Shown here piece by piece: positions 13,346 through 55,676 of a stretch of DNA of 61,622 nt (its first letter is position 1; every line of letters begins with the position of its first letter). Below the pieces are notes generated by a model that worked only from the letters and a program-made list of their open reading frames with translations, was not told the origin of the DNA and did no database searches. Origin of the DNA: Planctomicrobium piriforme (GTDB taxonomy: Bacteria; Planctomycetota; Planctomycetia; Planctomycetales; Planctomycetaceae); contig CAMATH010000038.1 of assembly GCA_945860955.1 (NCBI GenBank), forward strand, positions 1 to 61,622, written 5' to 3'. Both the position numbers and the translations under genes were made by a program.

Positions 13346-13460
13346 GGACGGCGTTCCTACGACGCCGCTTCGCTGAACGTAGTTCACACCATGGAGTTCG
13401 GTGCGATACAATCCAGCCCACAGATGTCTGGCCACCTTCATTCCCCAGCGAACCGCCACC

Positions 13461-15751: not shown

Positions 15752-15760
15752 ATCAGAGCG

Positions 15761-19036: not shown

Positions 19037-19054
19037 CGTAGTTCGTAAACGGGG

Positions 19055-19086
19055 ATGGTAGCGTGGATTTTAATTCACGCTACCAT
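19055..19086. terminator. Hairpin between convergent genes, REP-like
   Basis: ATGGTAGCGTG pairs with CACGCTACCAT across an AT-rich loop (GATTTTAATT). Sitting between two convergent genes, it can act as a bidirectional terminator. It contains the GTAG tetranucleotide seen in the other hairpin repeats. Confidence 0.65.
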
Positions 19087-19111
19087 CAAGTCCGGGAGCT
19101 GTCACTCCCCA

Positions 19112-19690: not shown

Positions 19691-19969
19691 GTTGTTCTAT
19701 TCCAGGAAGAGTGTCGTTCAGGCAACCGAGCGAGATTCGCGATGTTATATCCGACACGACGGAAATTGCGACATTCAGGCCGAATCACATCTTCGAGCTC
19801 GCCAGTTCCGGGCACGGAGCTGGCTTGACGCAGTTCCATTGCTGCCGCTACGATCGATTTCTGGCGACGTCTTGGATTCTTCGGGACGCCTGACGTGACG
19901 TGTAGCAAAAACCAACACTGATTCCCAATTCCGGGGCATCTGTCGTGGGTTTGTGACCATTTCTGGATT

Positions 19970-20815
19970 GTGAAGGCTGTGAAGTTCTTACTACAACCAC
20001 CACCGGGTAGAACGGCAGAGTCGATCGAACGTCAATTCCTTGTCGAGAAGGAACTCGCGGATCGGCTACGTCAATCGAGTCCCGAGGAACGCAAGAACAT
20101 CCTGTCGACAATGTACGACGAGTTGTTCGCCAAGGTGCCCGAACATTCCAGGCTGAAGCGCAGAAGTGATCCTGAAAAAACCAGACAGTATAACCGATCG
20201 AAAACGGCTCTGCTGAGTCGATTTCTCGGCCCGGACATTGTGTTCCTGGAGTTCGGTTCTGGCGATTGCCAATTTGCCGAGGAGATCGCGAAGAAGGCAA
20301 AGGAAGTGATCGCTGTCGACATCTCTGACCAGCGAGATCCGTCGAAGCCGTCACCCGAGAATTTCCGCTTGGTGACGTACGATGGAACGAACCTGGATTC
20401 CGTCGCGAGCGATTCCGTTGATCTGGCGTTCAGCGATCAATTGCTGGAACATCTTCATCCCGATGACGCGCAAAACCATATCGCATTGATCCTGCGGATT
20501 CTTCGGAAGGGGGGCAGGTATGTGTTGCGAACCCCCCACGCGCACACCGGCCCTCATGATATCTCCAAGTATTTCAGTTACGTGCCCCAAGGCTTTCATC
20601 TTAAGGAGTGGACGTTTACTGAATTGCGGGCCTGTTTGCTGGCTGCCGGGTTCAGTCGCGTCACCGCGATGCGGTCGCTTGGTGGTACAACGTACAATAT
20701 TCCCTTTTCTTACCTCACCTGTGCGGAAAAACTGGTGGGTTCCTGCCCTGGGGCCTTGCGGAAGTTTTTTGGGAAATTGTTCATTCCTACATTACTGGTG
20801 GCCGCGACCAAGTAG
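19970..20815 (+). CDS. Class I SAM-dependent methyltransferase
   Basis: 281 residues with a GTG start. The Rossmann methyltransferase core begins at about residue 85: motif I FLEFGSGDCQFAEEIA, acidic end of strand 2 VIAVDIS, then DSVDLAFSDQLLEHLHPDD and ILRKGGRYVLRTPH, a methyltransferase type-11/12 pattern. A C-terminal extension is rich in aromatics. Such enzymes often act on lipids, glycans or small metabolites; nothing here sets the substrate. The gene and its upstream region look less GC-rich than the neighbours and it stands alone between unrelated genes, so it could be a later acquisition. Confidence 0.85.
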   Translation: MKAVKFLLQPPPGRTAESIERQFLVEKELADRLRQSSPEERKNILSTMYDELFAKVPEHSRLKRRSDPEKTRQYNRSKTALLSRFLGPDIVFLEFGSGDCQFAEEIAKKAKEVIAVDISDQRDPSKPSPENFRLVTYDGTNLDSVASDSVDLAFSDQLLEHLHPDDAQNHIALILRILRKGGRYVLRTPHAHTGPHDISKYFSYVPQGFHLKEWTFTELRACLLAAGFSRVTAMRSLGGTTYNIPFSYLTCAEKLVGSCPGALRKFFGKLFIPTLLVAATK

Positions 20816-40650: not shown

Positions 40651-41637
40651 ATGCATATCCCTGATGGATTCCTCAGTCCCGCCGTCTGTGTGGGGACGGG
40701 TACAATCGCCGCCGGCACACTGGCGGTGGCGTTCCGAAAGCTAGACGCCACCTTGGCGAGTCGCACGGTCCCCCTCACCGGAATGGTCGCATCGCTGATT
40801 TTCGCGGGTCAAATGGTCAATTTTCCGATCGGCTTGCCTGTCTCGGGCCACCTGATCGGAGGGACACTGGCTGCGATTCTGCTCGGGCCATGGGGGGGAT
40901 GCGTGGCGCTCGCCCTCGTGCTGTTTGTTCAGATGGCCCTGTTCTCGGACGGGGGCTGGCTGGCGTACGGTGCCAATGTCTTCAACATGGGGGTCGTTGG
41001 CTCGCTGGGGGGTTACGCCCTCTACCAAGCCGTCCGCAGTCGGATCGCCGGGCCACGGGGCGTTCTGTTGGGGGGGATGCTCGCCGGCTGGGGGAGCGTG
41101 ATGGCGGCCGCCGCCTGTTTTTGTCTGGAATTCTGGCTGTCGCATCCCGCGGGCGAATTCGATTTGCGAAAAATCTGGATGCTGATGGCGAGTTTTCACA
41201 GTTTGATTGGAGTCGGCGAAGCTTTGATTACCGGGATGATTCTCAGTGTGGTGTTGGTCCACCGTCCCGAGCTGGTCGCCGCCCAGATAACTTCCACAAA
41301 TCCGGCGAGAATTGGTCGATTTGTGTGGACTGGTGTCGTGGCCGCGCTGATTGTCGCCGCCTTCGCCGCCCCGTTTGCATCAGAATACGGAGATGGGCTG
41401 GAAGCGGTGGCGGAGGAAGCGGGTTTCGCCTCTCACGCCACTGAGTCCACCGGGCCCTTGCTGAACGACTACGCATTGCCGCTTCCGGGGACTGATCGCG
41501 AATCACCACTCTGGGGCAAGGTGGCGACCGCGATGGCGGGGCTGCTGGGGACAACGGTGGTCCTGCTTCTGGGGTGGGGCCTGTGCCAGACGCTGCCTCG
41601 TCCGCTGACTCCCCGCGAGGATGTTCATGCGGGCTGA
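40651..41637 (+). CDS. cbiM: Cobalt/nickel ECF transporter S component with fused PDGLE domain
   Basis: 328 residues, multi-pass membrane protein. It captures Co2+ or Ni2+ for the energy-coupling transporter. The mature N-terminus MHIPDGFL is the diagnostic metal-site motif (His2), followed by helices including GQMVNFPIGLPVSGHLIGGTLAAILLGPWGG and FNMGVVGSLGG. At about 244-260 SEYGDGLEAVAEEAGF matches the PDGLE module that replaces CbiN, and a last helix follows (AMAGLLGTTVVLLLGWGL). The start is fixed by the MHIPDG motif. The stop overlaps cbiQ. Whether cobalt or nickel is the substrate cannot be told. Confidence 0.93.
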   Translation: MHIPDGFLSPAVCVGTGTIAAGTLAVAFRKLDATLASRTVPLTGMVASLIFAGQMVNFPIGLPVSGHLIGGTLAAILLGPWGGCVALALVLFVQMALFSDGGWLAYGANVFNMGVVGSLGGYALYQAVRSRIAGPRGVLLGGMLAGWGSVMAAAACFCLEFWLSHPAGEFDLRKIWMLMASFHSLIGVGEALITGMILSVVLVHRPELVAAQITSTNPARIGRFVWTGVVAALIVAAFAAPFASEYGDGLEAVAEEAGFASHATESTGPLLNDYALPLPGTDRESPLWGKVATAMAGLLGTTVVLLLGWGLCQTLPRPLTPREDVHAG

Positions 41638-42271
41638 CTTTCTCGACCGGTACGCGCGGGGGAACACGGTTTTCCATCGCCTCAATCCCCGAACGAAACT
41701 GCTGCTTGTGTTGCTGATCGTCATCGGCGTGCTGCTGACCCCGGTAGGGGCTTGGCCCGTGTTCGGCTGCCTTGCCTGCGGTGTCTACGCGGCTCTTGTG
41801 ATCGCCGAGATTCCCACCAAATACATTCTCCAGCGAATCGGTCTGTTGCTACCGCCGGTGTTGGGACTGGCACTGTCGGCCCCGATTTCGCGCGGTTTTC
41901 AGGGGGGATGGGAATTGGCCGCCACGATCACCTGTCGCAGTCTGCTGACGTTCAGCGCGGGGCTGTGGCTGGTGAACACCACGCCGTTCGAAACGCTGCT
42001 GGGGGCGATGGCTCGGCTCGGGTTGCCGAACCGGTTTGTCGAGTTGCTGGCGTTCATGTACCGCTACACGTTTGTGGTGTTCGACGAACTCGCCCGGATG
42101 CGGACGGGGCAGCGGTCGCGGACTTTCTCGAAGCCCGGCCTGTTCGCGTTGTGGATCTCGAACGCGTCGCTGTTGGGAATGCTGCTGATTCGTTCTCTGA
42201 ACCGAGCCGAGCGAATTCATGGAGCGATGTGTTCCCGAGGCTGGACCGGTCGAATGCCGGAGCAATCGTGA
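41627..42271 (+). CDS. cbiQ: Cobalt/nickel ECF transporter T component
   Basis: 214 residues, a membrane protein with several helices and the coupling-helix region with Ala-Arg-Gly-like signatures near the end (LNRAERIHGAMCSRGWTG). It transmits ATP-driven movement from CbiO to CbiM. The ATG at 41627 is chosen because GCGAGG lies 6 bp before it; another ATG two codons earlier touches that site. It overlaps cbiM by 11 bp and cbiO by 4 bp, so the three are translationally coupled. Confidence 0.93.
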   Translation: MRADFLDRYARGNTVFHRLNPRTKLLLVLLIVIGVLLTPVGAWPVFGCLACGVYAALVIAEIPTKYILQRIGLLLPPVLGLALSAPISRGFQGGWELAATITCRSLLTFSAGLWLVNTTPFETLLGAMARLGLPNRFVELLAFMYRYTFVVFDELARMRTGQRSRTFSKPGLFALWISNASLLGMLLIRSLNRAERIHGAMCSRGWTGRMPEQS

Positions 42272-43155
42272 CGTCCCCCGCCGCCACGGCATCGGCCCAG
42301 CCGACCCATTCGCGGGCGACAATCTTGAAGGTCGACCGGCTGAGCTACCGATACTCTTCCGGACAGTGGGCTCTGGCTGACGTGTCGTTCGAAATTGGAC
42401 TACGCGAAGTGGTGGGGTTGGTCGGTCCGAACGGTGCCGGCAAGACCACGTTGCTGATGCACCTCAATGGTTTGCTGTTTGGTGTTCAGCGCCCCATGGC
42501 ACAGTCGGCGGTCACCGGAGTCCCGCCTGTGGCGCCGGCCGCAATCGCGGCTGGTTCTCAGGGAAAGACGGGCGGGGCCGTCGAGGTCTTGGGACTGGCG
42601 GTCTCGCCCGCGACCGCGCCGGAAGTCCGCCGGATCGTCGGGTTGATGTTTCAGGATCCCGACGACCAGCTCTTCTGCCCGACGGTTGGGGACGACGTGG
42701 CGTTTGGACCGAAAAACCTGGGGTTTCCGAAGGACGAAATCAAGCGACGGGTCGCCGAGGCGCTGGCGGGTGTCGGCCTGACCGGATTCGAAGAGCGGTC
42801 GCCATTGCAACTGAGTTTTGGCGAACGCAAGCGGGTCTGTCTGGCGGGGGTTCTGGCCTGTGAACCCGACCTGCTGGCGCTCGATGAACCGTCAAGTAAT
42901 CTCGACCCGCGCTCGCGACGTGGGCTCATCGAGATTCTGCGCTCGTGCCGAGCCGCACAGCTCATCGCGACGCACGATCTGGAGATGATTCTCGATCTCT
43001 GCACCCGGGTGTTGGTTTTGGATGGCGGTCGCATTCAAGCCGACGGCCGGGCGTTCGAAATTCTCTCGGACGAACACCTGATGCGGACTCATGGCCTGGA
43101 AGTGCCGCTGAGTATTCAGTTGGGGGGACGGAAATCGACGCTCCCTGGAAAGTAG
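42268..43155 (+). CDS. cbiO: Cobalt/nickel ECF transporter ATPase
   Basis: 295 residues with GTG start overlapping cbiQ by 4 bp. Walker A GPNGAGKTT, Q-loop MFQDPDDQLF, signature LSFGERKR (variant of LSGGQ), Walker B LLALDEPSSNLD and switch His in IATHD are all present. Between Walker A and the Q-loop is an extra Ala/Pro-rich stretch of about 25 residues (from VQRPMAQSAV to GKTGGAV) not usual in CbiO. It powers the CbiMQO complex. There is no adjacent cobalamin gene or nickel enzyme to reveal the metal. Confidence 0.94.
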   Translation: MTSPAATASAQPTHSRATILKVDRLSYRYSSGQWALADVSFEIGLREVVGLVGPNGAGKTTLLMHLNGLLFGVQRPMAQSAVTGVPPVAPAAIAAGSQGKTGGAVEVLGLAVSPATAPEVRRIVGLMFQDPDDQLFCPTVGDDVAFGPKNLGFPKDEIKRRVAEALAGVGLTGFEERSPLQLSFGERKRVCLAGVLACEPDLLALDEPSSNLDPRSRRGLIEILRSCRAAQLIATHDLEMILDLCTRVLVLDGGRIQADGRAFEILSDEHLMRTHGLEVPLSIQLGGRKSTLPGK

Positions 43156-43266: not shown

Positions 43267-46239
43267 TCAATCCAGCGAACTCGCACCCCGCTTATTACGA
43301 AACTGCGGACTGAGAACGATCGTCTCAATCAGCGAACGCAACGTGTTGCCGTTCGCGTTCGTCTCGGTCCGCATTGTCTCCAGCAACGGCTCATCCGACA
43401 GCAGCAGACTGCGTCCCAGTGCGTACACGAGCAGCTTGCGAGACAACGAGTCGAGAAAATCATTCTGACGACGATCCGCCAGATATCTTCGCAGGCCGTC
43501 GACACCGTCGCGAACAGTTCCGTCGGGAAACTCCACGACTTGGGCAATAGGGCGTTCCGCCAAGTCGAGCGAGCGGCGTTCCCCCACGGGACCAAACCCC
43601 TCGAACACCACACCCGCCGCGTCAAATCGCTGGTGACATCCTGCGCAGGCGCGATTGTCACGGTGTTTCGCCAAGAGCTGTGGGATCGACAGGTCGCCGG
43701 TCGTCTTTTCGTCACGAGGCAGTTCCGGGACTGTTGGCGGAGGCGGGGGAATCTGCTCACCCAGCAACCGCCGCACCACCCAGTAACCACGTTTCACCGG
43801 GCTGGTACGAAGGCCTGGGGCGTTCTGCGTCAGAAACACTCCCATCGGTAACAAGCCCCCACGGCCATACTCCCGGGCGTTGTCGACGAGTTTCCAGTCG
43901 TCGGGGGGACCGGAGAACGGAATTCCGTAGTGAGCCGCGAGAGGGCCGTTGACGAATGTGTGGCGGCCGTACAGGAATTCCAAGACCGACCGATCGTGTT
44001 GCGCCAGGTCGACAAAAAACCGGACCGGCTCTTCGAACATCGCCTGCCGAAGTTCGTTGGTGAACATCGGGAATCGCTCACGGTCGACCGCGTTGTGTTC
44101 CTCAAACCGGCGGAAGTCGAGCCAGTTGCCGCCAAATTCCGTCGCGAGACCGCGAATTTTCGGATCCCGCATGAGTCTGCGAGTTTGTAACAACAATCCT
44201 GCCGACTCCCGCAATTCACCGCGACTGGCGACCGCCAGCAATTCGGCATCGGGCATGCTCGCCCACAGGAAGTAACTGAGCCGGCTGGCGAGTTCCTGGT
44301 CGCTGAGTGGCCTCGGCTCCGATCCGTCGGCGGCCAGATCAAACCGATAGCAGAACTGCGGCGCCAACAGCACCGTGGTCAGCGTGTCCCGGACCGCGTC
44401 CTCGTGAGACAGCCCCTCGGCCGTCCGCGCCAGTCGGTAAAAGCCCAGAAGCCCCTCATGTTCCGCTGGCGTTAACGGCCTGCGCCAGGCGCGGGAGGCG
44501 AATTCGACCAGGGATCGCAGTTGGGCCGGTTCCGCGTCTCGCCGCGACTGTTCCACCCGGTGGATCCGCTGCGACATCGACTCGTAATACTTCGCGATCG
44601 CTTCGATCGCCGTGGCATTCTCGGTCCGTTTTCGGACCTTTTCGAGATACACGTCGGCAAGTCGCCGCATTTTCGCTTCGGAACTGCAATCCTTATCCTC
44701 CGATCGGGCGAAGTCGAAAATCGCCTCTCCCATGAACTGCGGCGGTTCCGCCCGCTCAAAGAAGATGTAGTCCTGGTACTGCCGTTGCAGGACGTCGGCG
44801 ATGAATTCGAGTTCGTTCCACAAGGCGTCGAGTTCACCGCGTCCGGTGTCGTCGAGGACGAGATCGCAGAGCGGGGCATCATCGCGGAAATACCCCTGCA
44901 TCAAATGAAAGCCGGCGGTCAGCAACCGCCCCTGCCCGGCCCCCTTGGGATCGAAATAGGGCCCTCGATCATCCACGAAGAATGCCAGCGGAAACAGGTC
45001 ACAAAACCGCCGCAAACCGGCAAGATGGGTGGCCCGTGCGGGTTCGTCGTCCGGCTCCAGCTTCAGAAAACCGGCCAGTTCCACGTGTTCCGCGGGCAAC
45101 TTGTAACGGAGCTTTGTGAGGTCAGCGGCGGGTTCCCCTTCGTAAGCACGATGGCGGTTGGCGAGCTGTTGATTTCGCCACAGGACAAACGGCTGCGTGC
45201 CATCCGAGATCCCCTTGACGCTCAGGCGGGGGACATCCACCTTGAGCTCGCCGCGCCAGGCGACGATCAGGTCGCGAATCGCAGTCGCTGCCGCTCGCGG
45301 CGGTTCGCTCGAAGTGTTTTCGGGAACGGGAAGCCCATTCCAAAGCGATCGCACGGCAGCCAATGGCCCGACAGCCAGTTCGGCGTCGTTGAGTTCGTTC
45401 CAGAGCGTGGAGAGATAACGTGGGGAGAGCCGTTCCGCAGTCGCAATTTCCTCGAGTGTCGCCGTCGACTGGCCGAGTTTGTCACGGTAGCGAAACCGCC
45501 AGGCGGCGAGCAGATAGTCGCGAGTGTCGACTTTGTGCCTGCGGTAAAACTCAACGATGCGATGAACGCAGTATTTGTCGCGGTCGGTATCGGTCGCGAT
45601 GGGGTGCGGGGCGAATCTCAGACCGTCAGGAGCGAGGACGGCGTGGTCGGCGACCTCGCGCATGGCGGCGACATATTTGCGGAACAACGCCGGCGACATC
45701 GACAACGACTCACCCGAATTGTCAAACCCCGCCTCGTTCGCCGGGTCGACGGGGAACCCGCGCGACGGACGCAGTGGGAACCCAGTGAGATCGCGAATGG
45801 AGTGATCGAGTTCCGCGTTACTGAGCCGGCGAGCGGGGACCGGCCCGGGATCCCCCGCGTTCCGCTCCGACTCGAACTTTCGCCAGTCGCGGATCCAACG
45901 AACCATCCGGCCCCGTTCTTCATCGGAGGGCTGTCGTTTCGCATCGTCCGGAGGCATTTCACCCGATTCGACACGTTCCAGTACCGTGAGCCAGGTTTGC
46001 GGCTGACGGGCGAGGCCGTCCAGTGACTCGAACTGATCCAGCTGCAATTGCGCGGCCGGCTTTTGCTCGCCATGGCATGCGACGCAATGCCGTTCCACGA
46101 AGGGGCGGATGTCGTCACTCCAACGCTTCGCCAATTCGGCGTGAGACGACGCGTCATCCGCCGACCGCACCTCGCCAATGGAAGCGACCACGACCGCCAC
46201 GAGCCCCAAACGGCTCCACACCCTGCGAAAATGTGTCAT
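43267..46239 (-). CDS. DUF1592-type multidomain exported cytochrome-like protein
   Basis: 990 residues with signal peptide (LGLVAVVVASIGEVRS). The domain order follows the DUF1587/1592/1588/1585 family: N-terminal planctomycete cytochrome-c-like CVACHGEQKPAAQLQLD, NAELDHSIRDLTG (DUF1587), a long helical centre, RPLTPAEHEGLLGFYRLAR, a second CxxCH in CAGCHQRFDAAGVVFEGFGPVGERR (DUF1588), and VYALGRSLLLSDEP (DUF1585). Two heme sites imply periplasmic electron transfer. These genes usually sit beside a DUF1552 gene; that partner is missing here. It is separated from the next upstream gene by only 3 bp, so the lipoprotein gene is in the same operon. Confidence 0.9.
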   Translation of the reverse strand: MTHFRRVWSRLGLVAVVVASIGEVRSADDASSHAELAKRWSDDIRPFVERHCVACHGEQKPAAQLQLDQFESLDGLARQPQTWLTVLERVESGEMPPDDAKRQPSDEERGRMVRWIRDWRKFESERNAGDPGPVPARRLSNAELDHSIRDLTGFPLRPSRGFPVDPANEAGFDNSGESLSMSPALFRKYVAAMREVADHAVLAPDGLRFAPHPIATDTDRDKYCVHRIVEFYRRHKVDTRDYLLAAWRFRYRDKLGQSTATLEEIATAERLSPRYLSTLWNELNDAELAVGPLAAVRSLWNGLPVPENTSSEPPRAAATAIRDLIVAWRGELKVDVPRLSVKGISDGTQPFVLWRNQQLANRHRAYEGEPAADLTKLRYKLPAEHVELAGFLKLEPDDEPARATHLAGLRRFCDLFPLAFFVDDRGPYFDPKGAGQGRLLTAGFHLMQGYFRDDAPLCDLVLDDTGRGELDALWNELEFIADVLQRQYQDYIFFERAEPPQFMGEAIFDFARSEDKDCSSEAKMRRLADVYLEKVRKRTENATAIEAIAKYYESMSQRIHRVEQSRRDAEPAQLRSLVEFASRAWRRPLTPAEHEGLLGFYRLARTAEGLSHEDAVRDTLTTVLLAPQFCYRFDLAADGSEPRPLSDQELASRLSYFLWASMPDAELLAVASRGELRESAGLLLQTRRLMRDPKIRGLATEFGGNWLDFRRFEEHNAVDRERFPMFTNELRQAMFEEPVRFFVDLAQHDRSVLEFLYGRHTFVNGPLAAHYGIPFSGPPDDWKLVDNAREYGRGGLLPMGVFLTQNAPGLRTSPVKRGYWVVRRLLGEQIPPPPPTVPELPRDEKTTGDLSIPQLLAKHRDNRACAGCHQRFDAAGVVFEGFGPVGERRSLDLAERPIAQVVEFPDGTVRDGVDGLRRYLADRRQNDFLDSLSRKLLVYALGRSLLLSDEPLLETMRTETNANGNTLRSLIETIVLSPQFRNKRGASSLD

Positions 46240-46242
46240 CGA

Positions 46243-46905
46243 TCACTTCCTGGGGAAATCGTCTAAAGCGGCCGGAGCGTCGAAGTCCACCTCCAGCGAT
46301 TCGCCACTTTTCGGATTGTGAATCGAAGTGGCGTGCAACGTTTGGCTTCCCGCCTCGTGCCAACCGGTCACTTTGAGCAGCGCACCGACGGTCGCCACAG
46401 ACCGGATAGCGTCGGCCGACTGAGATGGAAAATGAACGGAGCGACCATCGGCGAGTCGAATACAGTCGATCAACCCCGCCGGGCAAAGTTTCAACTCCGC
46501 GACCTCCGCCGACAACGAAAACACTTTGCGGTCACTCGCCGAATCCGGTTCCTCTCCCTCCGCACGTGGCTCCGCGCCACTCGACACGCGTTTTCGAGAA
46601 CCCGCGTCACGGGAGGGCGAAGCTCCTGCTGAGCCGCCGCTGTGCGCCTGCACGTCGAAATCCGTCCTTTGGGCAGCCTCGGACCCCCGTTCATCGTCAG
46701 CCTGCGTGCCATCCGCGGTTTCCGCCGGCGGCGAACTCATATCTCCCACCTCGGACTCCGTTCGCAGACGATACTGCTCCAGCGCCTGCCCCAGCGCTTT
46801 CAGGTTCTGCTGCATCTGCTTCCGTTTCGCGGCTTCGCGGGATTTGAAATCGCAACCACACGAGAACAACACCAGAACGATTGCGATCCAATGAAATGGG
46901 CGCAT
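46243..46905 (-). CDS. Small lipoprotein-like protein carrying a repeat-derived insert
   Basis: 220 residues, not recognised. The N-terminal signal (FHWIAIVLVLFSCGC) resembles a lipoprotein signal. A helical stretch (REAAKRKQMQQNLKALGQALEQYRLR) is followed by an acidic, disordered-looking region containing GGSAGASPSRDAGSRKRV and SSGAEPRAEGE, which appears to come from an in-frame hairpin repeat. The C-terminal 80 residues look ordered (LKVTGWHEAGSQTLHATSIHN). It precedes the DUF1592 gene by 3 bp, so the two products may work together at the envelope. Confidence 0.72.
   Translation of the reverse strand: MRPFHWIAIVLVLFSCGCDFKSREAAKRKQMQQNLKALGQALEQYRLRTESEVGDMSSPPAETADGTQADDERGSEAAQRTDFDVQAHSGGSAGASPSRDAGSRKRVSSGAEPRAEGEEPDSASDRKVFSLSAEVAELKLCPAGLIDCIRLADGRSVHFPSQSADAIRSVATVGALLKVTGWHEAGSQTLHATSIHNPKSGESLEVDFDAPAALDDFPRK
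46553..46636. repeat. Hairpin repeat embedded in a coding region
   Basis: Read on the minus strand: GGAG-CTTCGCC-CTCC hairpin, then GTGGC/GCCAC hairpin, giving the peptides SAGASPSRD and SSGAEPRAEG. GGAG and GTAG are the two classic feet of REP elements. The insert keeps the frame. Confidence 0.65.
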
Positions 46906-46994
46906 GGAGGGTCACCTGAGACGGAGGAACGGAACGGACGCAGAATATCGTGATCTTCGGCGGGAGACAAACCGCTCGAATTCGTCGAATACGA

Positions 46995-47960
46995 TCACCC
47001 GCGATCGCTGAAGTGCAATTCCTTCAGACTCGGCACCTGCTTCGACTCAATCTCCCACTGGATGCCATTCTCGGCCACAGAGAATGCTACCGAGGGGGGA
47101 CGCTGGCACAGTTTATGACAAATGAGGTCGAAACGATTGGGATGGGAAGGGTTCTGATCAATATGCCACAGCGCGCCGACCGATTCGACCAGCATGGAGC
47201 TGCCAAACGCTTTCGCCAGTGTGACTTTCCCAGCCGACAATCGCGCCGGCAGAACCGTGAGCGGAGTCACCAAGAGGATCGCCATGTGGCGTTCGAACGC
47301 CAGACGGTTGAGTTGATCAAGCAGCGTGCGCAACTCCGACTCGCGCCATTTCGCGACCTGCCGGGGCAGGGCTTCGATCACCAGAAGCGCGACCGGTTCG
47401 TGTTCGGGTGATCGAGGTATGGTCAAGTGCGCGGGGGGCAGATTCTCCGCAAATCGCCACTGGCGCAACAGCGGGAAATCGGCCGGCAGGTTGAACGGTC
47501 GCTCACACGGATTCCCATCCGGGCCGGCGGGTTCGACAACGCCACTGGCGAGGTGCAACTGGTCGAGCCGACCGCCAGCCAGCGCAACCAGCCGACCGAA
47601 ATCGCGCCGTGGATCGCCTCCAGCGGTCACGACGGCGACCTGTTGCGCGAATTGCCTGCAGTACAGGCCGGTCGGCGGGCCAAGACCGGGAAACGTGGTG
47701 CCCGCAGTGACCCGGGCGACCAGGTCGGCAACCAGCCCCGAGAAATCACTTCCCGAGGGAGTTCCCAGCACCGTGACTCGTCCCCGGGGAAGCCAACGTA
47801 ACCAGATCCAATCGGGTTCGAGCAGCGACTCTTCGTCAACGCTCCAGTCCCGGACCGGAATGTGTTCAACCGTATTCTGTGTCGACTCGGAAGCTGGCTG
47901 GGGTCGTTTCCCCCGACCCGTTCCACCCGGGTCAGATGTGTGAATCACCCTTGAATTCAT
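46995..47960 (-). CDS. RepA/AAA_25-like protein without a functional Walker A
   Basis: 321 residues. It resembles RepA-type hexameric ATPases (AAA_25): PDWIWLRWLPRGRVTVLGTPSGSDFSGLVADLVARVTAGTTFPG aligns with the usual lead-in to the P-loop, yet the loop (residues 66-74, GTPSGSDFS) has Asp where the lysine should be. The strand expected to be Walker B reads LLVIEALPRQV, with Glu for Asp. The last third (GKVTLAKAFGSSMLVESVGALWHIDQNP) keeps the family pattern. ATP hydrolysis is therefore doubtful; it may be a regulatory or structural relative. The N-terminal 40 residues are disordered. No phage or plasmid genes are nearby. Confidence 0.7.
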   Translation of the reverse strand: MNSRVIHTSDPGGTGRGKRPQPASESTQNTVEHIPVRDWSVDEESLLEPDWIWLRWLPRGRVTVLGTPSGSDFSGLVADLVARVTAGTTFPGLGPPTGLYCRQFAQQVAVVTAGGDPRRDFGRLVALAGGRLDQLHLASGVVEPAGPDGNPCERPFNLPADFPLLRQWRFAENLPPAHLTIPRSPEHEPVALLVIEALPRQVAKWRESELRTLLDQLNRLAFERHMAILLVTPLTVLPARLSAGKVTLAKAFGSSMLVESVGALWHIDQNPSHPNRFDLICHKLCQRPPSVAFSVAENGIQWEIESKQVPSLKELHFSDRG

Positions 47961-48162
47961 GGGACACCGTGTTCGGATCTCCTTGGAGCTGCGTCGATGA
48001 CGTACTCATGCGTTTCAGTATACTGACGTTTCTATAGGGGTCAAGTGTGAAGTGGACCTTTTTCCATGTTTTTGGGAATTGGGGCGGGATTTTGAGATTC
48101 ACAACGGCGAAGGGGCAAAGCCCGGCAATGGCGTTTTTTCGAACTGCGGGGTTGTTGGGCCC

Positions 48163-48232
48163 GTGTCGCGACGACGCTCCTGCGGCGTCGCGCCCGACGG
48201 CGCAGCCGGCGGCCAGGTCGGTAAGCGTCACC
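48163..48232. repeat. Dispersed GC-rich hairpin repeat, copy 2
   Basis: Inverted relative to 13280-13345. Hairpin CGACGC/GCGTCG around 48170-48190 followed by GCCGGCGGCCAGGTCGG. It lies in the 282-bp gap before the four-helix membrane protein gene; the rest of the gap holds nothing recognisable. Confidence 0.75.
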
Positions 48233-48242
48233 CAGTCTATTT

Positions 48243-48761
48243 TCACGGTGGGGAGGCTGAATTCCGATCCGATTCCAAATCCATCACCAATTCGCAAACT
48301 TCAATCGCGTCCTGAAAATCCGCTTCGATCATCGCGTCGCGCCACCACAGAATACGCAACCACCCGCACCAAGTCAGATACGCTCCCGTAATCAGCATTC
48401 CCACCAGGAAAAACCCCAACGCAATCCAATCTTCGGCCGTGAGCAGTTTGTCACCCGGTTGCCCCTCGCGTATTTCCCCGAGTCCAGCGACCACTCCTAC
48501 CCAAATCCCGACGCCGACCACCATGTTGAGCATTCCCAGCGCGGCTTCGAGAAAATGCGATAGTTGAAGCCAGACACGAAACTCGGCCCACGCGAGTGCC
48601 GCGGACGGAAATAGCACGATCATCGCAGGGAGGACCGTGAACGGATCATTCCATTCACCGACCATGACCCAGACTGTGCACAATGCCAGGATCGTCCACC
48701 ACGTGACGTTGATCCCGCAGAACCACGCGCGTTGTTTTTGGTGATGATCGAAGATTGACAA
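48243..48761 (-). CDS. Hypothetical four-helix membrane protein
   Basis: 172 residues. Hydrophobic helices at about 20-35 (WWTILALCTVWVMVG), 42-58 (VLPAMIVLFPSAALAW), 68-95 (FLEAALGMLNMVVGVGIWVGVVAGL) and 112-135 (WIALGFFLVGMLITGAYLTW), with an acidic C-terminal tail. No known motif. The 3' end lies just beyond the dispersed repeat and there is no obvious partner gene. Confidence 0.72.
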   Translation of the reverse strand: MSIFDHHQKQRAWFCGINVTWWTILALCTVWVMVGEWNDPFTVLPAMIVLFPSAALAWAEFRVWLQLSHFLEAALGMLNMVVGVGIWVGVVAGLGEIREGQPGDKLLTAEDWIALGFFLVGMLITGAYLTWCGWLRILWWRDAMIEADFQDAIEVCELVMDLESDRNSASPP

Positions 48762-48894
48762 GTTGACTCCACGTGGCCGAAAACCAGGGGTCTACGTATT
48801 GCCGCGTCTGTCACGAATCGGGCGTCGATAGCCGCTGACTGGCGTGCGCGCCTGTGGTGGAAACTCTCAATTTCCGCCGTGTCGAGTCGAACGC

Positions 48895-50319
48895 TCACGC
48901 GATGATGTCATGGACCACTTCGCCGTGGACGTCGGTCAGGCGAAAATCGCGGCCGCCGTACTTGAACGTGAGTTTGGTGTGTTCGAATCCCAAGAGGTTC
49001 AGCATCGTCGCGTGCAGGTCGTGCAGGTGGACTTTGTTCTCAACCGAGTAGTAGCCGTAGTCGTCGGTCTTGCCGTAGACGAGGCCCGCCCTCACGCCAC
49101 CACCCGCCATCCACATGGTGTACCCCTGCGGGTTGTGGTCCCGCCCGTCGTCACCCTGCGCGACCGGGGTACGGCCGAATTCGCCTCCCCATAAGACGAG
49201 CGTCTCGTCCAAAAGTCCCCGCGACTTTAAATCGGTCAACAGGGCGGCGATCGGCTGATCGACCTCCATCGCGTTTTTCGCGTGGTCGGCCCTCAAGCCG
49301 CCGTGCTGGTCCCACTTGTAACTGTGCGTGCATTGAATGAACCGCACGCCACGTTCCGCGAACCGCCGAGCCATCAGACACTGGCGACCGAAATTCATCG
49401 TCTGCGGCTGATCGAGTCCGTACAGTTTCTGCGTCGCCTCGCTTTCATCCGCGATGCTTTGCATCTCGGGGGCCGCCGCCTGCATCCGGAACGCGAGTTC
49501 AAACGAATTGATGCGCGCCTCCAGCGACGAATCGGGGCCGGTTTCAGCCATGCGATCGACGTTCATCTCACGCAGCAGATCCAGCTCCATCCGTTGCAAG
49601 TTTCGCGGCGTCCCCTCGGCGTTTTCGATGAACGGAATCTTCGCCCGGTCCGACGGGATGCTGGCATTTCCCAACGGGGTTCCTTGATACACCGCTGGCA
49701 GAAACGCCGAACTGTATGCGTTTACGCCACCATGAGTCAGGGTCGGGCAGATCGTGATGAACCCGGGGAGATCCTGGTTATCGGTTCCCAGGCCGTAGGT
49801 GATCCATGAACCCATGCTGGGTCGGACAAACGTGTCGCTGCCGGTGTGCAGTTCCAGAAGCGCTCCCCCGTGTCGTGAATTCGAACCATGCATCGAATTG
49901 ATGATGCACATCTGATCGACCTGCTTCGCGACGTGAGGAAACAGGTCGCTCACCCACGCACCGCTTTGGCCGTACTGCTGGAATTTCCAGGGCGATTTCA
50001 GCAGGTTGCCAGTGGCCGACGAGAAGACCCGCGGTTTGGCGAACGGCAGCGGTTTTCCGTGATCGCGCTCCAGTAAGGGTTTGTAGTCAAACGTGTCGAC
50101 CTGCGACGGGCCGCCGTGCATGAACAGAAAGATCACCCGCTTGGCGGTGCCGGTGAAGTGCGGCTGCTTGGGAGCGAGGGGATTGGCCGACGGAGCGGCG
50201 GCGGCCGAACTCCCCAACAGTCCCGCGAGCGCGAGCGAGCCAAAGCCAGCGGATGACCGCTTCAGCAATTCGCGACGCGATACGGGAGCCTCGTTGTCGA
50301 AACACCAGGAACGTGTCAT
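48895..50319 (-). CDS. DUF1501 family exported protein paired with PSD1
   Basis: 474 residues with Tat signal (SRRELLKRSSAGFGSLALAGLLGSS). Family landmarks: IFLFMHGGPSQVDTFDYKP, GSWITYGLGTDNQDLPGFITI and WGGEFGRTPVAQGDDGRDHNPQGY; the His and Asp residues expected of alkaline-phosphatase-like metal sites are kept. It begins 8 bp after the PSD1 gene ends, the standard planctomycete pair. The pair is thought to act on exported glycans or esters with electron transfer; no substrate is proven. ATG at 50319 is chosen by the Tat signal; the open frame continues into the neighbour but is antibiologically basic there. Confidence 0.93.
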   Translation of the reverse strand: MTRSWCFDNEAPVSRRELLKRSSAGFGSLALAGLLGSSAAAAPSANPLAPKQPHFTGTAKRVIFLFMHGGPSQVDTFDYKPLLERDHGKPLPFAKPRVFSSATGNLLKSPWKFQQYGQSGAWVSDLFPHVAKQVDQMCIINSMHGSNSRHGGALLELHTGSDTFVRPSMGSWITYGLGTDNQDLPGFITICPTLTHGGVNAYSSAFLPAVYQGTPLGNASIPSDRAKIPFIENAEGTPRNLQRMELDLLREMNVDRMAETGPDSSLEARINSFELAFRMQAAAPEMQSIADESEATQKLYGLDQPQTMNFGRQCLMARRFAERGVRFIQCTHSYKWDQHGGLRADHAKNAMEVDQPIAALLTDLKSRGLLDETLVLWGGEFGRTPVAQGDDGRDHNPQGYTMWMAGGGVRAGLVYGKTDDYGYYSVENKVHLHDLHATMLNLLGFEHTKLTFKYGGRDFRLTDVHGEVVHDIIA

Positions 50320-50326
50320 GGCAACG

Positions 50327-53300
50327 CTACTCCATGTAGATGAATTCATTCGACGCCAGCACGCTCCGGCAGAGACTCTGCCAGGCGCGTTCACGCGGCG
50401 CGGTGTTCGTGGCGGAGGCCGGGGCAGTGTCCGTGATGGCCGCCGCCGCGGTGTAACGATCGAGGAACGCCAGCGCCCGGGTGGTTTCCGCGGTACGCGG
50501 AGGTCGGCCCAGTGCGGTCCGGTAGAGTTGGTCAACCCGCGCCGTGTCTTCAATCGGCTCGTCGAGCAGTCGCCGCGCGAGAACACGGGTCTGTTTCAGA
50601 ACCAGGTCGCTGTTCATGAGGAACAGCGCCTGCGGAGCGACGGTCGTTGTGTCACGATGGCCCATCTCCACACTCGGGTCGGCGAAATCGAACGCCTGAA
50701 AGACGTCGTACAACGCGCTCCGCACCACCGGGAGGTAAATCGAACGGCGGGGCGGGTCGTAAATCACCGGATTCACATTCGCCGTGCTGGTGACGTACGC
50801 CCGGTTCGGCGTGGGTAGGAGAGTGCCACCCATATTCGCGTCGAGAGTTCCCGCGACCGCGAACACCGAGTCTCGCAGCGACTCGACCTCAAGCCGGCGC
50901 CGGTTGAAACGCCACCAGAGACGGTTTTCGGGATCCGCCTCGGCCGCCTGTTCATTAAAACGGGTACTCATCTGCCAGGTCGCCGACAGCAGGATTTTGC
51001 GGTGCAACGACTTGAGCGACCAGCCCCCGCGCTGAAACTCCAACGCGAGATGGTCGAGCAGCTCGGGGTGCGTCGGCCGTTCGCCCAATCGACCAAAATT
51101 GTCGGGAGACCGCACCAGTCCTTCCCCAAAATGCCACTGCCAGACCCGGTTCACAATGACCCGACTGGTGAGTGGATGATCGGGGTCGGTCAGCCACCGC
51201 GCGAGTTCGAGTCGGCCCGATTGCGCCGGGTTGACCGACTGATTGTCTGCCAGAGACACCACCTGCAGGAATCGGCGGGGAACTTCCGTCCCCAGATTGA
51301 GGTGACTCCCGCGCAAGTGAACACGCAGATTCTCGGGAGTCGCGTCACTGACCGCCATCGCCTCCGGCAACTTGGGCAGGGCTCCCTCCAGTGTCTTTTG
51401 CTCCGCGCGTTGCTCGGTCAATTCCATCTGTGCCGACGCCGTGAACAGTTCCTCTACGTTCTTGGGCGTCGCCAACGGTCCCGACGGATCGTAGGTGAAC
51501 TTTCGAAACGCTTCGAGAACCTCGTCGGAAAGCGCGGTAATGGATTTCGTTTCGGCGCGGGCCTGCAACTCTTCCCAGCGACTCGTCGCTTCCAAAGCGA
51601 GCTGCTGGTAACGGGGGGCCAGTTCCAGAAGCGTCTTCGGCGCGGGTTCGGCGAGTAATCGCGCACGAATCGCCTCCGCAAGTCCTGTCGCCGGCGCGGG
51701 GGGAGTCTTTCCCTCTTCCAGCGCGGCGAATTCATGCCATGTCGCCAGGAGCGACTCCGGCTTGTCGCGGGTCGCGGTGAGCGTGGCTGTGAAGGATTGC
51801 TGGAATCCCGCCACGAGTCTCGATTTCTTCTTTTCCGCGTCCCCCGACGGCTCGTTGACGACTGGAGGCGGCGCGACAGCGTTCCCCTGGGCGTCTCGAG
51901 CCGGGGCGATCAACAGTTTGTCGATATGTGGGAATGGACAGGGATTCTCCAGTCGGACGACACTCTTTCCCGCAGCGAGCGGCACCAGTGCTTCAATGTT
52001 CCACGTCTGCGTGTCAGGGTTCCACGACCCGGTCACTTTTCCCGCCGCGTCGGACTTGAGCAGTCGACCGCCTATCGACAGCAGATTCGGCCGGGCGGCG
52101 GCGGCGGCGTAGCGAATTTCGATCTGGTACACCCCCGCGGTCGGAATTTCGATGTCGTACTCTGTGAAGTTGGGCAATTCTCCCTTGTTCACCAGCACGC
52201 CGATCCCTTCGCCGTACCCGTCGCGGACCTTTAAGACATTCCCGCGGACGAAATCCTCAGCTTCAATCAGAATCGCGCCGGCAGGAGCGGGATCACCCGG
52301 TTTCGGACCGAGAGTCGTCACCGAAGTCAGCAACGCGTCGAGTCGGGATTGAGTGTGCGCCGCGTGCAGCAGGTCACCCACCTCCCGACGCGCCTGCCGC
52401 AACACGACTTCGGTCTCGGACTTCACCTTCTCGGCGATCGCCTGCTTCGTCTGGTCGATCCGCCGCTGCTGTTCAACACGCTGCGCCACCACTTCGGGAG
52501 CCGCCAGAGGCAATTCCTGCCAACGGGCGACGACCGAGAAATTCTCCATGGTTTTTGTGCTTTTGAAGATCCCCGCCAAGCCGTAGTAATCTTCGATCGG
52601 GATCGGGTCGAACTTGTGCGAGTGGCAGCGGGCACAGCCGAGCGTCAATCCCATGAACGCCCGACCAAGCGTATCGACCTGCTCGTCGATGATATCCATC
52701 TGCATTTTCACCGGGTCATCCTCGGCGAGCATTTTCGCCCCGAGCGAGAGGAACCCGGTTGCCACGGTCCGTTCGATGCGGGCTTCGACATCGTCGGTCG
52801 CGGGGAGCAGGTCGCCTGCGAGCTGTTCGGCGAGGAATTGATCGTACGGCTTGTCTTTGTTCAAAGCCGCGATGACATAATCCCGGTAGCGCCAGGCGCT
52901 CGCGTACGCAAGATTTTCATCCAGGCCATTTGAGTCGGCGTAACGTGCGACATCGAGCCAGTGCCGCGCGAACCGTTCGCCGTACCGCGGCGAGGCGAGC
53001 AGGCGGTCGACCACATGGGCGAATGCGTCGGGGGAACTGTCGGCGAGAAAGGCGTCAATCTCAGCGGGGGTTGGTGGGATCCCGTGCAGGTCGAGCGTCG
53101 CGCGGCGAATCAAATTCCGCTTGTCGGCGGCGGGGGCGGGAGAGAGCGCGGCGGACTCGAGTTTCGCGAGAATGAACCGATCGAGGTCTTCGAGTGCCCA
53201 CAGTTCGTTTTTCACCGCAGGCTGGGCAACGGGCCGAACCGGTTGAAATGCCCAGAAGTTGCGATCGGCCTCGGTGATTTCAGTCGCAGTCGATGCGGAT

Positions 53301-53932
53301 TTCACTCCGGGTGAAGGCTCTTTGGACTGGGGCCAGATCGCTCCCTGTCGCACCCATTCCACCAGCAACGCAATTTCGGCGTCTGGGAGCTTGGATTTGG
53401 GCGGCATCTTGAGGTCGCCCGCGTAGCGAACCGCCTGAATCAGCAGGCTCTTTTCCGGCTGTTTGGGAACGACGACGCCACCACTGTCGCCCCCCTGAGA
53501 GAGTGCTGCGGGAGAGTCGAGCCGAAGCCCCGCCTTTTGCTTCGCTCCGCCGTGGCATTCGAGACACCGGTCGACCAACAGGGGCCGGATCTTGCTTTCA
53601 AAAAACGCCTCGGCCTGGGCGCGGTCGGCTGCCGAAGGTTCGGCGACGTCGACCGGCTGGTTCTCGTTTTGACCGAAGACTGTCCCAGTCCAGCCGACCG
53701 ACAGGAGCAATGTACAGCACAGGATTCCAAAAACTGATACGAGAGGCGGCCGAAAATCAAGTGATTTCGCGGTGCCTCGCCCGCGAGGAATTGGTAACCG
53801 TTGGCCATTGCCCAACGGCTGCACGTCAACATCGCGGTTTCCGACGTGCTGAGAAGAACTCCGCAACGGCCGACGCGAGCGCGGCGGCAGTACTGTTCGG
53901 GTCAAATCGCAGGGGAGGAGGGAAGCGTTCAT
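50327..53932 (-). CDS. PSD1 and planctomycete-cytochrome-C protein with carbohydrate-binding-like domain
   Basis: Up to 1201 residues. The signal peptide (VFGILCCTLLLSVGWTGTVFG) sits 65 residues in, so the true start may be an internal GTG/TTG rather than the ATG at 53932. Order: cytochrome-C-like domain with CLECHGG, DUF1549 (LNRDKPYDQFLAEQLAGDLLP region with HRFDPIPIEDYYGLAGIF), a mid-chain insertion at about 540-670 resembling a CBM6-type carbohydrate-binding domain (ILIEAEDFVRGN...YDIEIPTAGVYQIEIRYAAA), then DUF1553 (LTSRVIVNRVWQWHFGEGLV, RRLEVESLRDSVFAVAG). Periplasmic. Operon with the DUF1501 gene. The binding domain suggests a polysaccharide target. Confidence 0.88.
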   Translation of the reverse strand: MNASLLPCDLTRTVLPPRSRRPLRSSSQHVGNRDVDVQPLGNGQRLPIPRGRGTAKSLDFRPPLVSVFGILCCTLLLSVGWTGTVFGQNENQPVDVAEPSAADRAQAEAFFESKIRPLLVDRCLECHGGAKQKAGLRLDSPAALSQGGDSGGVVVPKQPEKSLLIQAVRYAGDLKMPPKSKLPDAEIALLVEWVRQGAIWPQSKEPSPGVKSASTATEITEADRNFWAFQPVRPVAQPAVKNELWALEDLDRFILAKLESAALSPAPAADKRNLIRRATLDLHGIPPTPAEIDAFLADSSPDAFAHVVDRLLASPRYGERFARHWLDVARYADSNGLDENLAYASAWRYRDYVIAALNKDKPYDQFLAEQLAGDLLPATDDVEARIERTVATGFLSLGAKMLAEDDPVKMQMDIIDEQVDTLGRAFMGLTLGCARCHSHKFDPIPIEDYYGLAGIFKSTKTMENFSVVARWQELPLAAPEVVAQRVEQQRRIDQTKQAIAEKVKSETEVVLRQARREVGDLLHAAHTQSRLDALLTSVTTLGPKPGDPAPAGAILIEAEDFVRGNVLKVRDGYGEGIGVLVNKGELPNFTEYDIEIPTAGVYQIEIRYAAAAARPNLLSIGGRLLKSDAAGKVTGSWNPDTQTWNIEALVPLAAGKSVVRLENPCPFPHIDKLLIAPARDAQGNAVAPPPVVNEPSGDAEKKKSRLVAGFQQSFTATLTATRDKPESLLATWHEFAALEEGKTPPAPATGLAEAIRARLLAEPAPKTLLELAPRYQQLALEATSRWEELQARAETKSITALSDEVLEAFRKFTYDPSGPLATPKNVEELFTASAQMELTEQRAEQKTLEGALPKLPEAMAVSDATPENLRVHLRGSHLNLGTEVPRRFLQVVSLADNQSVNPAQSGRLELARWLTDPDHPLTSRVIVNRVWQWHFGEGLVRSPDNFGRLGERPTHPELLDHLALEFQRGGWSLKSLHRKILLSATWQMSTRFNEQAAEADPENRLWWRFNRRRLEVESLRDSVFAVAGTLDANMGGTLLPTPNRAYVTSTANVNPVIYDPPRRSIYLPVVRSALYDVFQAFDFADPSVEMGHRDTTTVAPQALFLMNSDLVLKQTRVLARRLLDEPIEDTARVDQLYRTALGRPPRTAETTRALAFLDRYTAAAAITDTAPASATNTAPRERAWQSLCRSVLASNEFIYME

Positions 53933-54060: not shown

Positions 54061-54888
54061 CTAAACCGACGCCCCTGCCCGGACCACGATCTCTCCCCGC
54101 CCCACCGAAACAAAATCCCCCCGGTAGAAATCGAACTCAGACTCGAGCAGCGACGCATCGAACGCCAATCCCTTGGAGCGCAAGTCGCGCAGCAGCATTG
54201 GCAGGACGGGGGTGCGCTGAGTCGAAGCGTAGCGAAAACTGGGGAGCAGCCGGCACGGGTTTGGTCCGAGGAGGCCGATCATTCCCCGCCGCATTCCCGC
54301 GCCGGGACGGATCCCGCATTCACCAAACCCCAGAATCGTCCCCGCGATCATGTTGAATCCCAACATGTCCCCGGTCCCGCCCCCGATCGCGATCATCCCC
54401 CGGCGCATCGTCAGGCCGATCTCGTTTCCCGCGTTGCCGTCGACCAGAATCGTTCCCCCGGTCATCCCTTTCGCGGATCCGCGGTACGCCGCCCCAATCA
54501 GGTGTCCGCCGTTTCCTCGCACGTGAATGAAACCGCCGCACATTTCGGCACCGACCCAGCCCCGCGCATCCCCTTCCACGCGAATCTCTCCACCGCGCAT
54601 CTGGCTCCCGACGTGCCTGCCGGCCCGGCCGCAAACGCGGATCTCGCCACTCACCATTTGAGCGCCAATCCAGTGGACTCCGTACAGATCTCCGTGAAAC
54701 TCCCATTTCTTATCGCTGGCATCCCCCTCGACACGAAACATCTCCGCCAGCGGAATTTTGCGGTTTCCGTGAAAAATCTCGAAGCGTTCGATCTCCGCAG
54801 GTGACTTGTCGCAAGCCCAGTCGGGGGTCAGGCCTTCGATTTCGACAGGAACCGCAGTCTCGCCACGATAGGTCAGTCTCAGTGTCAT
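54061..54888 (-). CDS. fhcC: Formyltransferase/hydrolase complex subunit C (formylmethanofuran dehydrogenase C-like)
   Basis: 275 residues, close to the usual length of FhcC. It is made of right-handed beta-helix repeats of the GxxxGxxMxxGxIxVxGxxG kind (IGAQMVSGEIRVCGRAG, VGSQMRGGEIRVEGDARG, VGAEMCGGFIHVRGNGG, IGLTMRRGMIAIGGGTG), as in the C subunit of formylmethanofuran dehydrogenase and the C-terminal domain of glutamate synthase. In planctomycetes this belongs to H4MPT-linked formaldehyde oxidation, where the Fhc complex turns formyl-H4MPT to formate. FhcA, B and D are not nearby. ATG at 54888; 125 bp divergent region shared with mobA. Confidence 0.85.
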   Translation of the reverse strand: MTLRLTYRGETAVPVEIEGLTPDWACDKSPAEIERFEIFHGNRKIPLAEMFRVEGDASDKKWEFHGDLYGVHWIGAQMVSGEIRVCGRAGRHVGSQMRGGEIRVEGDARGWVGAEMCGGFIHVRGNGGHLIGAAYRGSAKGMTGGTILVDGNAGNEIGLTMRRGMIAIGGGTGDMLGFNMIAGTILGFGECGIRPGAGMRRGMIGLLGPNPCRLLPSFRYASTQRTPVLPMLLRDLRSKGLAFDASLLESEFDFYRGDFVSVGRGEIVVRAGASV

Positions 54889-55013
54889 GAATCGAGTGGG
54901 GTCGGGGCGACAGATCGAGGCGGGTGGTAATTGGGCAGGGCCGAAAACTATCCTCAAGCTATCCACTGAACGACTGTCGTGCAATTCCCAGACAGCTCCG
55001 ATACGATTTTCGA

Positions 55014-55676
55014 ATGAAAACCGGTGCGATCATTCTCTGTGGCGGAAAATCGAGTCGCATGGGACGCGACAAGGCCACGCTTCCGTTTGGAGCAGAATCC
55101 ATGCTTCAGCGCGTGGTCCGACTGCTGTGCGACGTGGTGCCGGCGAAAAATTTCGTGGTCGTTTCGGCACAGCACCAGATTCTCCCCGAACTTCCGGCGG
55201 AGATCACGATCACGCAGGATCTGCATCCCGAACGGGGGCCACTGGAGGGATTGGCGGCCGGTTTGGCGGTCGTTGATCCCGCGCTGGATGCGGTTTATGT
55301 CACCAGTTGCGACGTTCCGCTGCTGGCTCCGCGATTCGTCTCGCGAATGTTCGAATTGTTGGACGGACATGCAATCGTCGTCCCGCGTGATGGTGCCTTC
55401 CACCACCCACTGGCGGCGGTCTATCGGCCCGGCGTTCTGCCAACCGTGCGGAATCTGCTCGAGAACAATCGCTTACGGCCCCGCTTTTTGTTCGACGAAG
55501 TAGACACCCGGGAAGTCGACGTGGAAGAGCTGCGGCGAGTCGATCCCGGGTTGCACACGCTGCGAAATCTGAACACTCCCGAGGACTATCAGACCGCGCT
55601 TCAGGAAGCGGGTTTTTCAGGTGAGAATCATGGCGACCACTTCCCCAACAGACACGGGGGAATCGAGCGGAAGTAG
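55014..55676 (+). CDS. mobA: Molybdenum cofactor guanylyltransferase
   Basis: 220 residues. It joins GMP to molybdopterin to make the bis-MGD-type cofactor. Seen: IILCGGKSSRMGRDKATLPFG (GGxSxRMGxDK nucleotide-binding motif), VYVTSCDVPLL metal-binding strand and a Rossmann layout of normal length. The gene is divergent from fhcC, whose relatives in methanogens need this cofactor. The last 20 residues overlap the antisense 3' end of the small lipoyl-like gene. The family is sometimes hard to part from other nucleotidyltransferases, but the motifs favour MobA. Confidence 0.92.
   Translation: MKTGAIILCGGKSSRMGRDKATLPFGAESMLQRVVRLLCDVVPAKNFVVVSAQHQILPELPAEITITQDLHPERGPLEGLAAGLAVVDPALDAVYVTSCDVPLLAPRFVSRMFELLDGHAIVVPRDGAFHHPLAAVYRPGVLPTVRNLLENNRLRPRFLFDEVDTREVDVEELRRVDPGLHTLRNLNTPEDYQTALQEAGFSGENHGDHFPNRHGGIERK

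Follow-up and report, generated by a model that had tools for sequence, protein, structure and literature searches.

A truncated member of a multicopy family

The stretch of DNA analysed here, hereafter the window, comprises 61,622 nucleotides of Planctomicrobium piriforme (contig CAMATH010000038.1) and carries on its minus strand, at 46995–47960, an open reading frame (ORF) for a truncated member of a family of putative pseudo-ATPases related to AAA_25. The ORF starts with ATG and encodes 321 amino acids (aa; the stop codon is included in the coordinates), and its A-type matches in the same genome are 86–90% identical to it. Family homology stops at about position 47048 and is followed by approximately 17 unrelated residues (46998–47047, minus strand), as seen in the protein alignment and in blastn comparisons, where the homology of the other A copies starts at 47047–47050. 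The linker and C-terminal domain of the full-length members (described below) are missing, and the window copy is thus 3′-truncated, as is another copy, L037. The initial annotation, made from the sequence of the window, called the frame long and intact; it is open, but it is shortened relative to the family. The window copy is probably either defective or a core-only variant, possibly an interfering one.

The initial annotation overlooked that the gene does not stand alone: its own genome (G000) has 20 matching places, this one included. These were returned by a search with the window protein through 59 genomes, G000 included, together with 16 matches on 14 contigs of G002, a metagenome-assembled genome (MAG) of 1,340 contigs; G001–G003 are other genomes of the same genus. 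Matches in the two remaining members of the genus and in all other relatives were weak (best E-value 1.5e-12), and the 23 loops that we read among them were GK[ST] loops. The places in G000 comprise nine A-type copies including the window, six B-type (61–63% identical to the window protein), one D-type (61%), three C-type (42–43%) and one fragment. A full-length frame including the C-terminal motif is present at 14 of the 20 places, and six further places carry the C-terminal part only, three of them at contig ends; contig ends (C63, C126, C226 and C12) affect these copy counts. The D-type copy of G000 (L043) is one open frame, and its orthologue in G002 (L058; contig C1076, 2441–3684) consists of two overlapping frames.

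An order-wide profile search of 170 genomes detected full-length members in G000 and G002 and reported none among the best candidates (up to nine per genome) of the other 168. Partial matches at E ≤ 1e-10 occurred in at least 18 other genomes, and the two new ones that were read have GKS loops. A scan of 84,980 species genomes, which may leave out records of the window's own genome, yielded 14 loci, all in the Planctomycetota MAG JAPLOC01 from Lake Pavin (G002). Among viral contigs, eight stretches fitted a search pattern and none was confirmed as a relative with the family profile; both scans start from two peptide patterns, which distant members could escape. No account of such a family was found in the literature, searched largely without full texts. 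On the basis of these searches, the family appears to be confined so far to two related planctomycete genomes.

Predicted fold and descent

AAA_25 is the sole Pfam family matched by the window protein (E-values up to 10), with 22.6 bits and an E-value of 8.9e-5, below the gathering score of 27; of eight further family members, two C-type proteins (36.1 and 41.0) passed this threshold and six did not. The AlphaFold2 (AF2) model of the window protein, calculated from an alignment of 33 rows including 23 canonical viral homologues, has a mean predicted local distance difference test score (pLDDT) of 78 and a predicted template modelling score (pTM) of 0.78. Superimposition of this model by VIA-align gave Z scores of 18.0 for RadA (4dc9; 219 residues, root-mean-square deviation 3.5) and 17.8 for DnaB (4esv), and RadA, Dmc1, DnaB and T7 gp4 all scored 17–18 over about 200–220 residues. 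The best structural matches in BFVD are phage AAA-domain, primase and replicative helicase proteins.

At the profile level, hhalign aligned a profile of 20 family members to one of eight canonical AAA_25 proteins from planctomycetes over 229 columns (99.5% probability, E-value 4.5e-23), and one canonical planctomycete relative matches phage primase and helicase families. A profile including the viral homologues matches RepA of RSF1010 (1g8y) at 8.9e-8, whereas the family-only profile does not and has no credible match in the PDB. PADLOC returned nothing, and both NCBIfam matches were far under the cut-offs. PHROGs gave no match for the window protein or an A-type protein and weak ones for one B-type (E-value 0.0022, in the linker) and one C-type protein (0.52). 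The RecA-like core, the entry motif (WIW...PRG/WLW...PLG), a helix (KWRE.ELR/HKNAEVR) and the GS motif occur both in the family and in AAA_25 (PF13481). Taken from profiles and models, these similarities identify the family as predicted RecA-fold proteins derived from AAA_25/RepA-like ATPases of phages and planctomycetes. This descent had been proposed in the initial annotation, with profile search and structure prediction against AAA_25 named as the check; the AF2 model, the VIA-align superimpositions, the hhalign alignment and the weak AAA_25 match all agree with it, and the fold found is RecA-like.

Degeneration of the active site

In alignments with family, canonical and viral rows, the Walker A motif of the window protein corresponds to residues 66–73 (GTPSGSDF; 47742–47765, minus strand) and has no Lys. 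The Lys is found nowhere in the longer stretch GTPSGSDFSGL, and no alternative register restores it. Because the initial annotation had described the Walker A Lys as replaced by Asp, the register deserves comment. From the landmark G60 to the landmark G87, the window protein is as long as the canonical ones, as judged by eye, and a gapless reading places Phe73 in the Lys column, Asp72 in that of the preceding Gly, and Ser74 in the Ser/Thr column. Asp would occupy the Lys position only if Gly66 were the first Gly of the motif, so the loss of Lys stands, while the position given for Asp was one residue off. A loop was readable in 26 of the 29 aligned family rows (three were unreadable), and none of the 26 contains the Lys. 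The same annotation had asked whether the Asp is fixed in orthologues: the residue-72 column holds Asp in 25 readable loops and Asn in the remaining one, the D-type L043. By comparison, Lys is present in the Lys column in 23/23 viral rows, and GK[ST] loops are found in all 23 rows of related planctomycete AAA_25 proteins.

Other catalytic positions have changed as well. Residue 114 of the window protein (47619–47621, minus strand) is Gly; in the alignment this is the position of the SAEDD Glu, which is present in all 23 viral homologues. Across the family, the 27 rows with a letter in this column have Gly or Val. The Walker B motif (residues 191–196; 47373–47390, minus strand) ends with Glu196 in place of Asp, as the initial annotation had correctly recognised. 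Glu is found at this position in the A, B and D types, with the exception of L040; L040 and the C type have Asp. The sensor His of the viral proteins (23/23) is Pro in 29/29 family rows. Since the columns of the SAEDD Glu and the sensor His, unlike that of the Walker B Asp, also vary within the planctomycete outgroup, the losses of Glu and His are less telling than the loss of Lys. The family differs from AAA_25 in these respects, at the Walker B Asp only for the A, B and D types without L040; it has neither a functional Walker A motif (GxxxxGK[ST]) nor an ATPase active site of the RepA (RSF1010) type. These alignments and models support the classification of the family proteins as pseudo-ATPases of AAA_25/RepA-like descent. 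We consider it barely plausible that they are still nucleotide-binding ATPases with an unusual P-loop: the predicted fold is intact, and C-type copies retain the Walker B Asp and, in the gapless reading, a Thr in the Ser/Thr column, but Lys, Glu and His are lost in every row that could be read.

Architecture of full-length members

Full-length members consist of approximately 430–470 aa (381 in the D type) and are arranged as a RecA-like core, a Pro-rich linker, and a conserved tail characterised by the motif LRQ[TS]PEWKRASRxERKRLL. Among the 59 genomes, this motif is found only in G000 (21 places) and G002 (14 places). In the AF2 model of a full-length G002 member (pLDDT 71, pTM 0.61), almost all of residues 314–414 score below 50, whereas the tail forms three short helices with a pLDDT of about 90. 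Full-length members are accordingly predicted, from sequence and model, to have a disordered linker followed by a C-terminal domain that is conserved, compact, basic and helical. The viral AAA_25 proteins instead continue into a different conserved C-terminal region, winged-helix-like by eye, and they differ further from the family in that the latter is multicopy and associated with repeats.

Selection and age of the copies

The mean pairwise ratio of nonsynonymous to synonymous substitution rates (dN/dS, omega) of the core is 0.15 for the A type (55 pairs, 11 copies), 0.14 for the B type (10 pairs, five copies) and 0.14 for the C type (six pairs, four copies), as calculated from open-frame copies, a selection that leans omega towards constraint. 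The calculation did not include the single D type or copies whose frames are broken or cut (for example L044, L045, L046, L052, L053 and L055). The C-terminal domain has similarly low values (A 0.19, B 0.17, C 0.12), and those of the linker (A 0.36, B 0.60, C 0.68) and the first 37 residues (0.45–0.49) are higher; the contrast between core and linker is unaffected by the choice of open frames. Seven close pairs have omega values of 0.07–0.22 at dS of 0.24–0.46. These ratios indicate that the open-frame copies are under strong purifying selection, and the view of the initial annotation that the protein is kept without normal ATP chemistry is borne out to this extent.

Two flanking host genes give a dS between G000 and G002 of 0.295 and 0.271. 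A third comparison (a DUF1501-like gene, dS 0.54) was not used because its frame is broken in G002. The A copies within G000 differ from one another by a dS of 0.23–0.65, and the cross-species pairs L033/L051 and L040/L054 show species-level dS.

Promoter-like block and upstream repeat

Homology among A copies stops sharply about 8 bp past the stop codon. On the upstream side, the 12 A copies compared have approximately 110 bp in common, which includes a match to the sigma70 promoter consensus (in the window TTGACC-N16-TATACT, 48017–48044, minus strand); the exact promoter string of the window has no copy in the other 232 loci. Further upstream, most A copies have another common block and the GC-rich hairpin of a 188-bp dispersed repeat, which is often in tandem. 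By sequence comparison, the hairpin part lies at 48160–48233 in the window and marks the 5′ edge of the unit. At least 31–71 bp of the hairpin part precede 13 of the 15 A and B copies in G000, always in one orientation, and the nearest hairpin copy ends 170–218 bp before the ATG. In G002, the hairpin is found upstream of four of the five A and B copies compared, and the fifth, L051, has only 114 bp of upstream sequence. The whole 188-bp unit is present upstream of some copies only. With 40 candidates scored per genome, the repeat occurs in at least 49 places in G000 and at least 48 in G002, and in none in G001 or G003. It folds into hairpins, with changes on both sides in three of 54 base pairs and a covariation term of +0.16 kcal/mol, and Rfam gave no match in the window from 46000 to 49500 (E-values up to 1). 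A common inverted partner repeat downstream of the A copies was not found. A separate repeat of about 90 bp is located within approximately 400 bp past the stop codon of L046, L047, L048, L056 and L057 (C type) and, reversed, upstream of the A-type L038.

Chromosomal positions and neighbouring genes

For six G000 copies (window, L032, L036, L037, L041 and L042), the 12 flank sides were sought in G002, and a side was regarded as informative when a G002 contig matched the flank and ran well past the junction. The gene is absent at the junction on all seven informative sides, with collinearity ending between 0 and about 250 bp from the unit edge; the other five sides were at or near a contig end, or the flank was not found. 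Both flanks were found for the window, L037, L041 and L042, in each case on different G002 contigs. The D-type pair L043/L058 occupies the same position in both species, which indicates that orthologous sites are detectable by this method.

The gene that follows the right flank of the window in G002 is, by eye, a Gfo/Idh-type oxidoreductase, which in G000 is located elsewhere, on contig C47; in the 12 kb of C47 read around it, there is no unit or repeat. The G002 contig that matches the L042 site also carries the C-terminus of an element, at a distance of about 5.2 kb from this site. When the G002 sequence that follows four of the junctions was compared with the loci, C230, C291 and C172 gave matches of 29–56 bases only, and C624 matched over 297–373 bases, at 78%, a dispersed repeat also located downstream of the B copies L040 and L054. 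In positions 1–20000 of the window, used as a control, most collinear blocks terminate close to a contig end. At approximately 13.3–13.45 kb, collinearity ends inside the contig on the C1015 side, and the C496 side is a contig end with a piece of the repeat; a gene-less copy of the 188-bp repeat (13282–13339, minus strand), located by repeat search, adjoins this end of collinearity with one G002 contig. We regard it as a lead that the units sit at chromosome breakpoints, given a small and not fully resolved control and a fragmented G002 assembly.

With family ORFs and repeat-made frames set aside, the recurrent neighbours are a DUF1501-type gene (window, L034, L038 and L057) and a PSD1-type gene (L034, L051 and L057), both named by eye, and no recurrent phage gene or transposase-like neighbour was recognised at the flanks. 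We take the DUF1501/PSD1 pair to be abundant host genes, as their DNA matches many places in G001–G003. In the window, PSD1-type and DUF1501-type genes lie on both sides of the unit (43267–46239, 48895–50586 and 50327–53932, all on the minus strand; named by eye). Other genes, recognised by eye from their translations, are CbiM/CbiQ/CbiO-like genes of a cobalt energy-coupling factor (ECF) transporter (40651–43155, plus strand), an FwdC/FhcC-like subunit of a formyltransferase-hydrolase complex (54061–54984, minus strand), and a MobA-like gene (54924–55676, plus strand); the latter two would fit the tetrahydromethanopterin-type one-carbon (C1) metabolism of planctomycetes. A dispersed repeat of about 385 bp (3935–4320) lies inside a collinear block and occurs in about a dozen places in G002.

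Possible function

RecA folds are reused without a P-loop or ATP chemistry in SulA and in Csm2-Psy3 of the Shu complex, which are single genes with other partners, and RAYTs have few gene copies, against about 20 in this family. The N-terminal domain of BcsE is predicted to be RecA-like with a ruined Walker A motif, as here, and still self-associates in two-hybrid tests; BcsE is, however, a regulator of cellulose secretion with other accessory domains, and the available text on it does not mention repeats (PMC7439463). Within RecA-like assemblies, RAD51D and XRCC2 are described as binding but not hydrolysing ATP (PMC7614784). Because of the precedents of BcsE and of RAD51D and XRCC2, we propose, with a probability of roughly 0.45, that this lineage-restricted multicopy family of dead RecA-fold proteins acts as an ATP-independent scaffold on DNA at its own repeats. 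The core would self-assemble without ATP hydrolysis, the tethered basic C-terminal domain would bind nucleic acids, and the targets would be the hairpin repeats beside each gene. Such a gene-plus-repeat system would have a RAYT/REP-like layout built on a dead RecA fold and no nuclease, and the movement or recombination of its units would depend on machinery of the host or acting in trans. The layouts are alike in that a gene is linked to short hairpin repeats with many copies elsewhere (PMC2817692). RAYT/REP systems are, as far as that source describes them, defined by a transposase with paired inverted repeats (PMC2817692), whereas here the gene has the repeat only upstream and in one orientation, and no IS200/IS605-related transposase domain was found in the family proteins scanned, only Pfam AAA_25 and a predicted RecA-like fold. 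The initial annotation considered a role outside replication likely because plasmid and phage genes are absent; the linked repeats still point to DNA, and the gene is a dispersed one restricted to this lineage. The bolder version, a new kind of repeat-associated element whose sole protein (a pseudo-ATPase of RecA fold that ends in a basic helical tail) binds its own 188-bp repeats and spreads or rearranges the chromosome there with no encoded nuclease, seems rather doubtful to us.

Several observations weigh against the proposed action at repeats. L037 and L038 have no upstream hairpin repeat, the 188-bp repeat also occurs without a family gene, and C-type copies lack it upstream and have a different repeat downstream. 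A conserved RNA structure of the repeat, which we considered, is not supported, since there is almost no covariation. DNA binding by the family proteins is conjectural, and the basic 30-residue domain could instead bind protein or membrane. Mobility of the units is likewise conjectural: a joined empty site, where a target duplication might be read, was not found in G002, no terminal inverted repeats joining both unit ends were found in the three units searched, and no nuclease or transposase domain was found (Pfam gave only AAA_25 for eight members at E-values up to 1, and PADLOC, NCBIfam and PHROGs added none). The smallest A-type dS within G000, 0.23, is near the species value of 0.27–0.30. 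Judged from these distances, the copies date from about the time of the species split or from before it, with no recent burst seen. Such an age speaks against ongoing transposition and favours either the maintenance of individual copies or gene conversion. The lean of omega towards constraint noted above should also be borne in mind.

The same age, together with the constraint on close pairs, the lack of a recurrent transposase-like neighbour, the species-level dS of L033/L051 and L040/L054 and the common site of L043/L058, makes it quite possible that the genes are ordinary host paralogues, that is, old duplicates scattered by rearrangement that serve as a regulator or partner-binding scaffold in a cellular job unrelated to the repeats. 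This explanation does not readily account for the absence of the gene at the matching place on all seven informative sides, the sharp end of A-copy homology past the stop codon, the repeat in one orientation at 13/15 A and B copies, or the existence of 3′-truncated copies. The self-contained promoter-plus-gene unit with its constrained ORF, its dispersed and mostly non-orthologous positions and the repeats at one edge would also suit a new type of autonomous mobile element moved by the family protein itself. We think this unlikely, as no known recombinase domain was found, and terminal inverted repeats (in three units), young copies and a joined empty site in G002 were all missing. Decaying remnants of phage or plasmid replication modules would explain why phage AAA, primase and helicase proteins are found among the intact homologues, why a canonical planctomycete relative matches phage primase/helicase families, and why the window copy is truncated and fragments exist. 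They appear very unlikely in view of the full-length frames with the C-terminal motif at 14/20 places, the core omega of about 0.15 in open-frame copies, the conserved new C-terminal domain and the flanks free of any recognised recurrent phage gene; we looked for relaxed selection and mixed P-loop states among the copies and found neither, the substitutions being shared by all readable copies.

Known RecA-fold proteins without ATP chemistry are single genes, and about 20 places per genome is unusual for this class, as are the mostly constrained full-length frames and the tie of most A and B types to a private hairpin repeat. If the protein does act on the repeats as we propose, a replication-type ATPase could be converted into a nuclease-free repeat-binding system, and the family is a testable candidate for what occupies the points of chromosome rearrangement in these planctomycetes.
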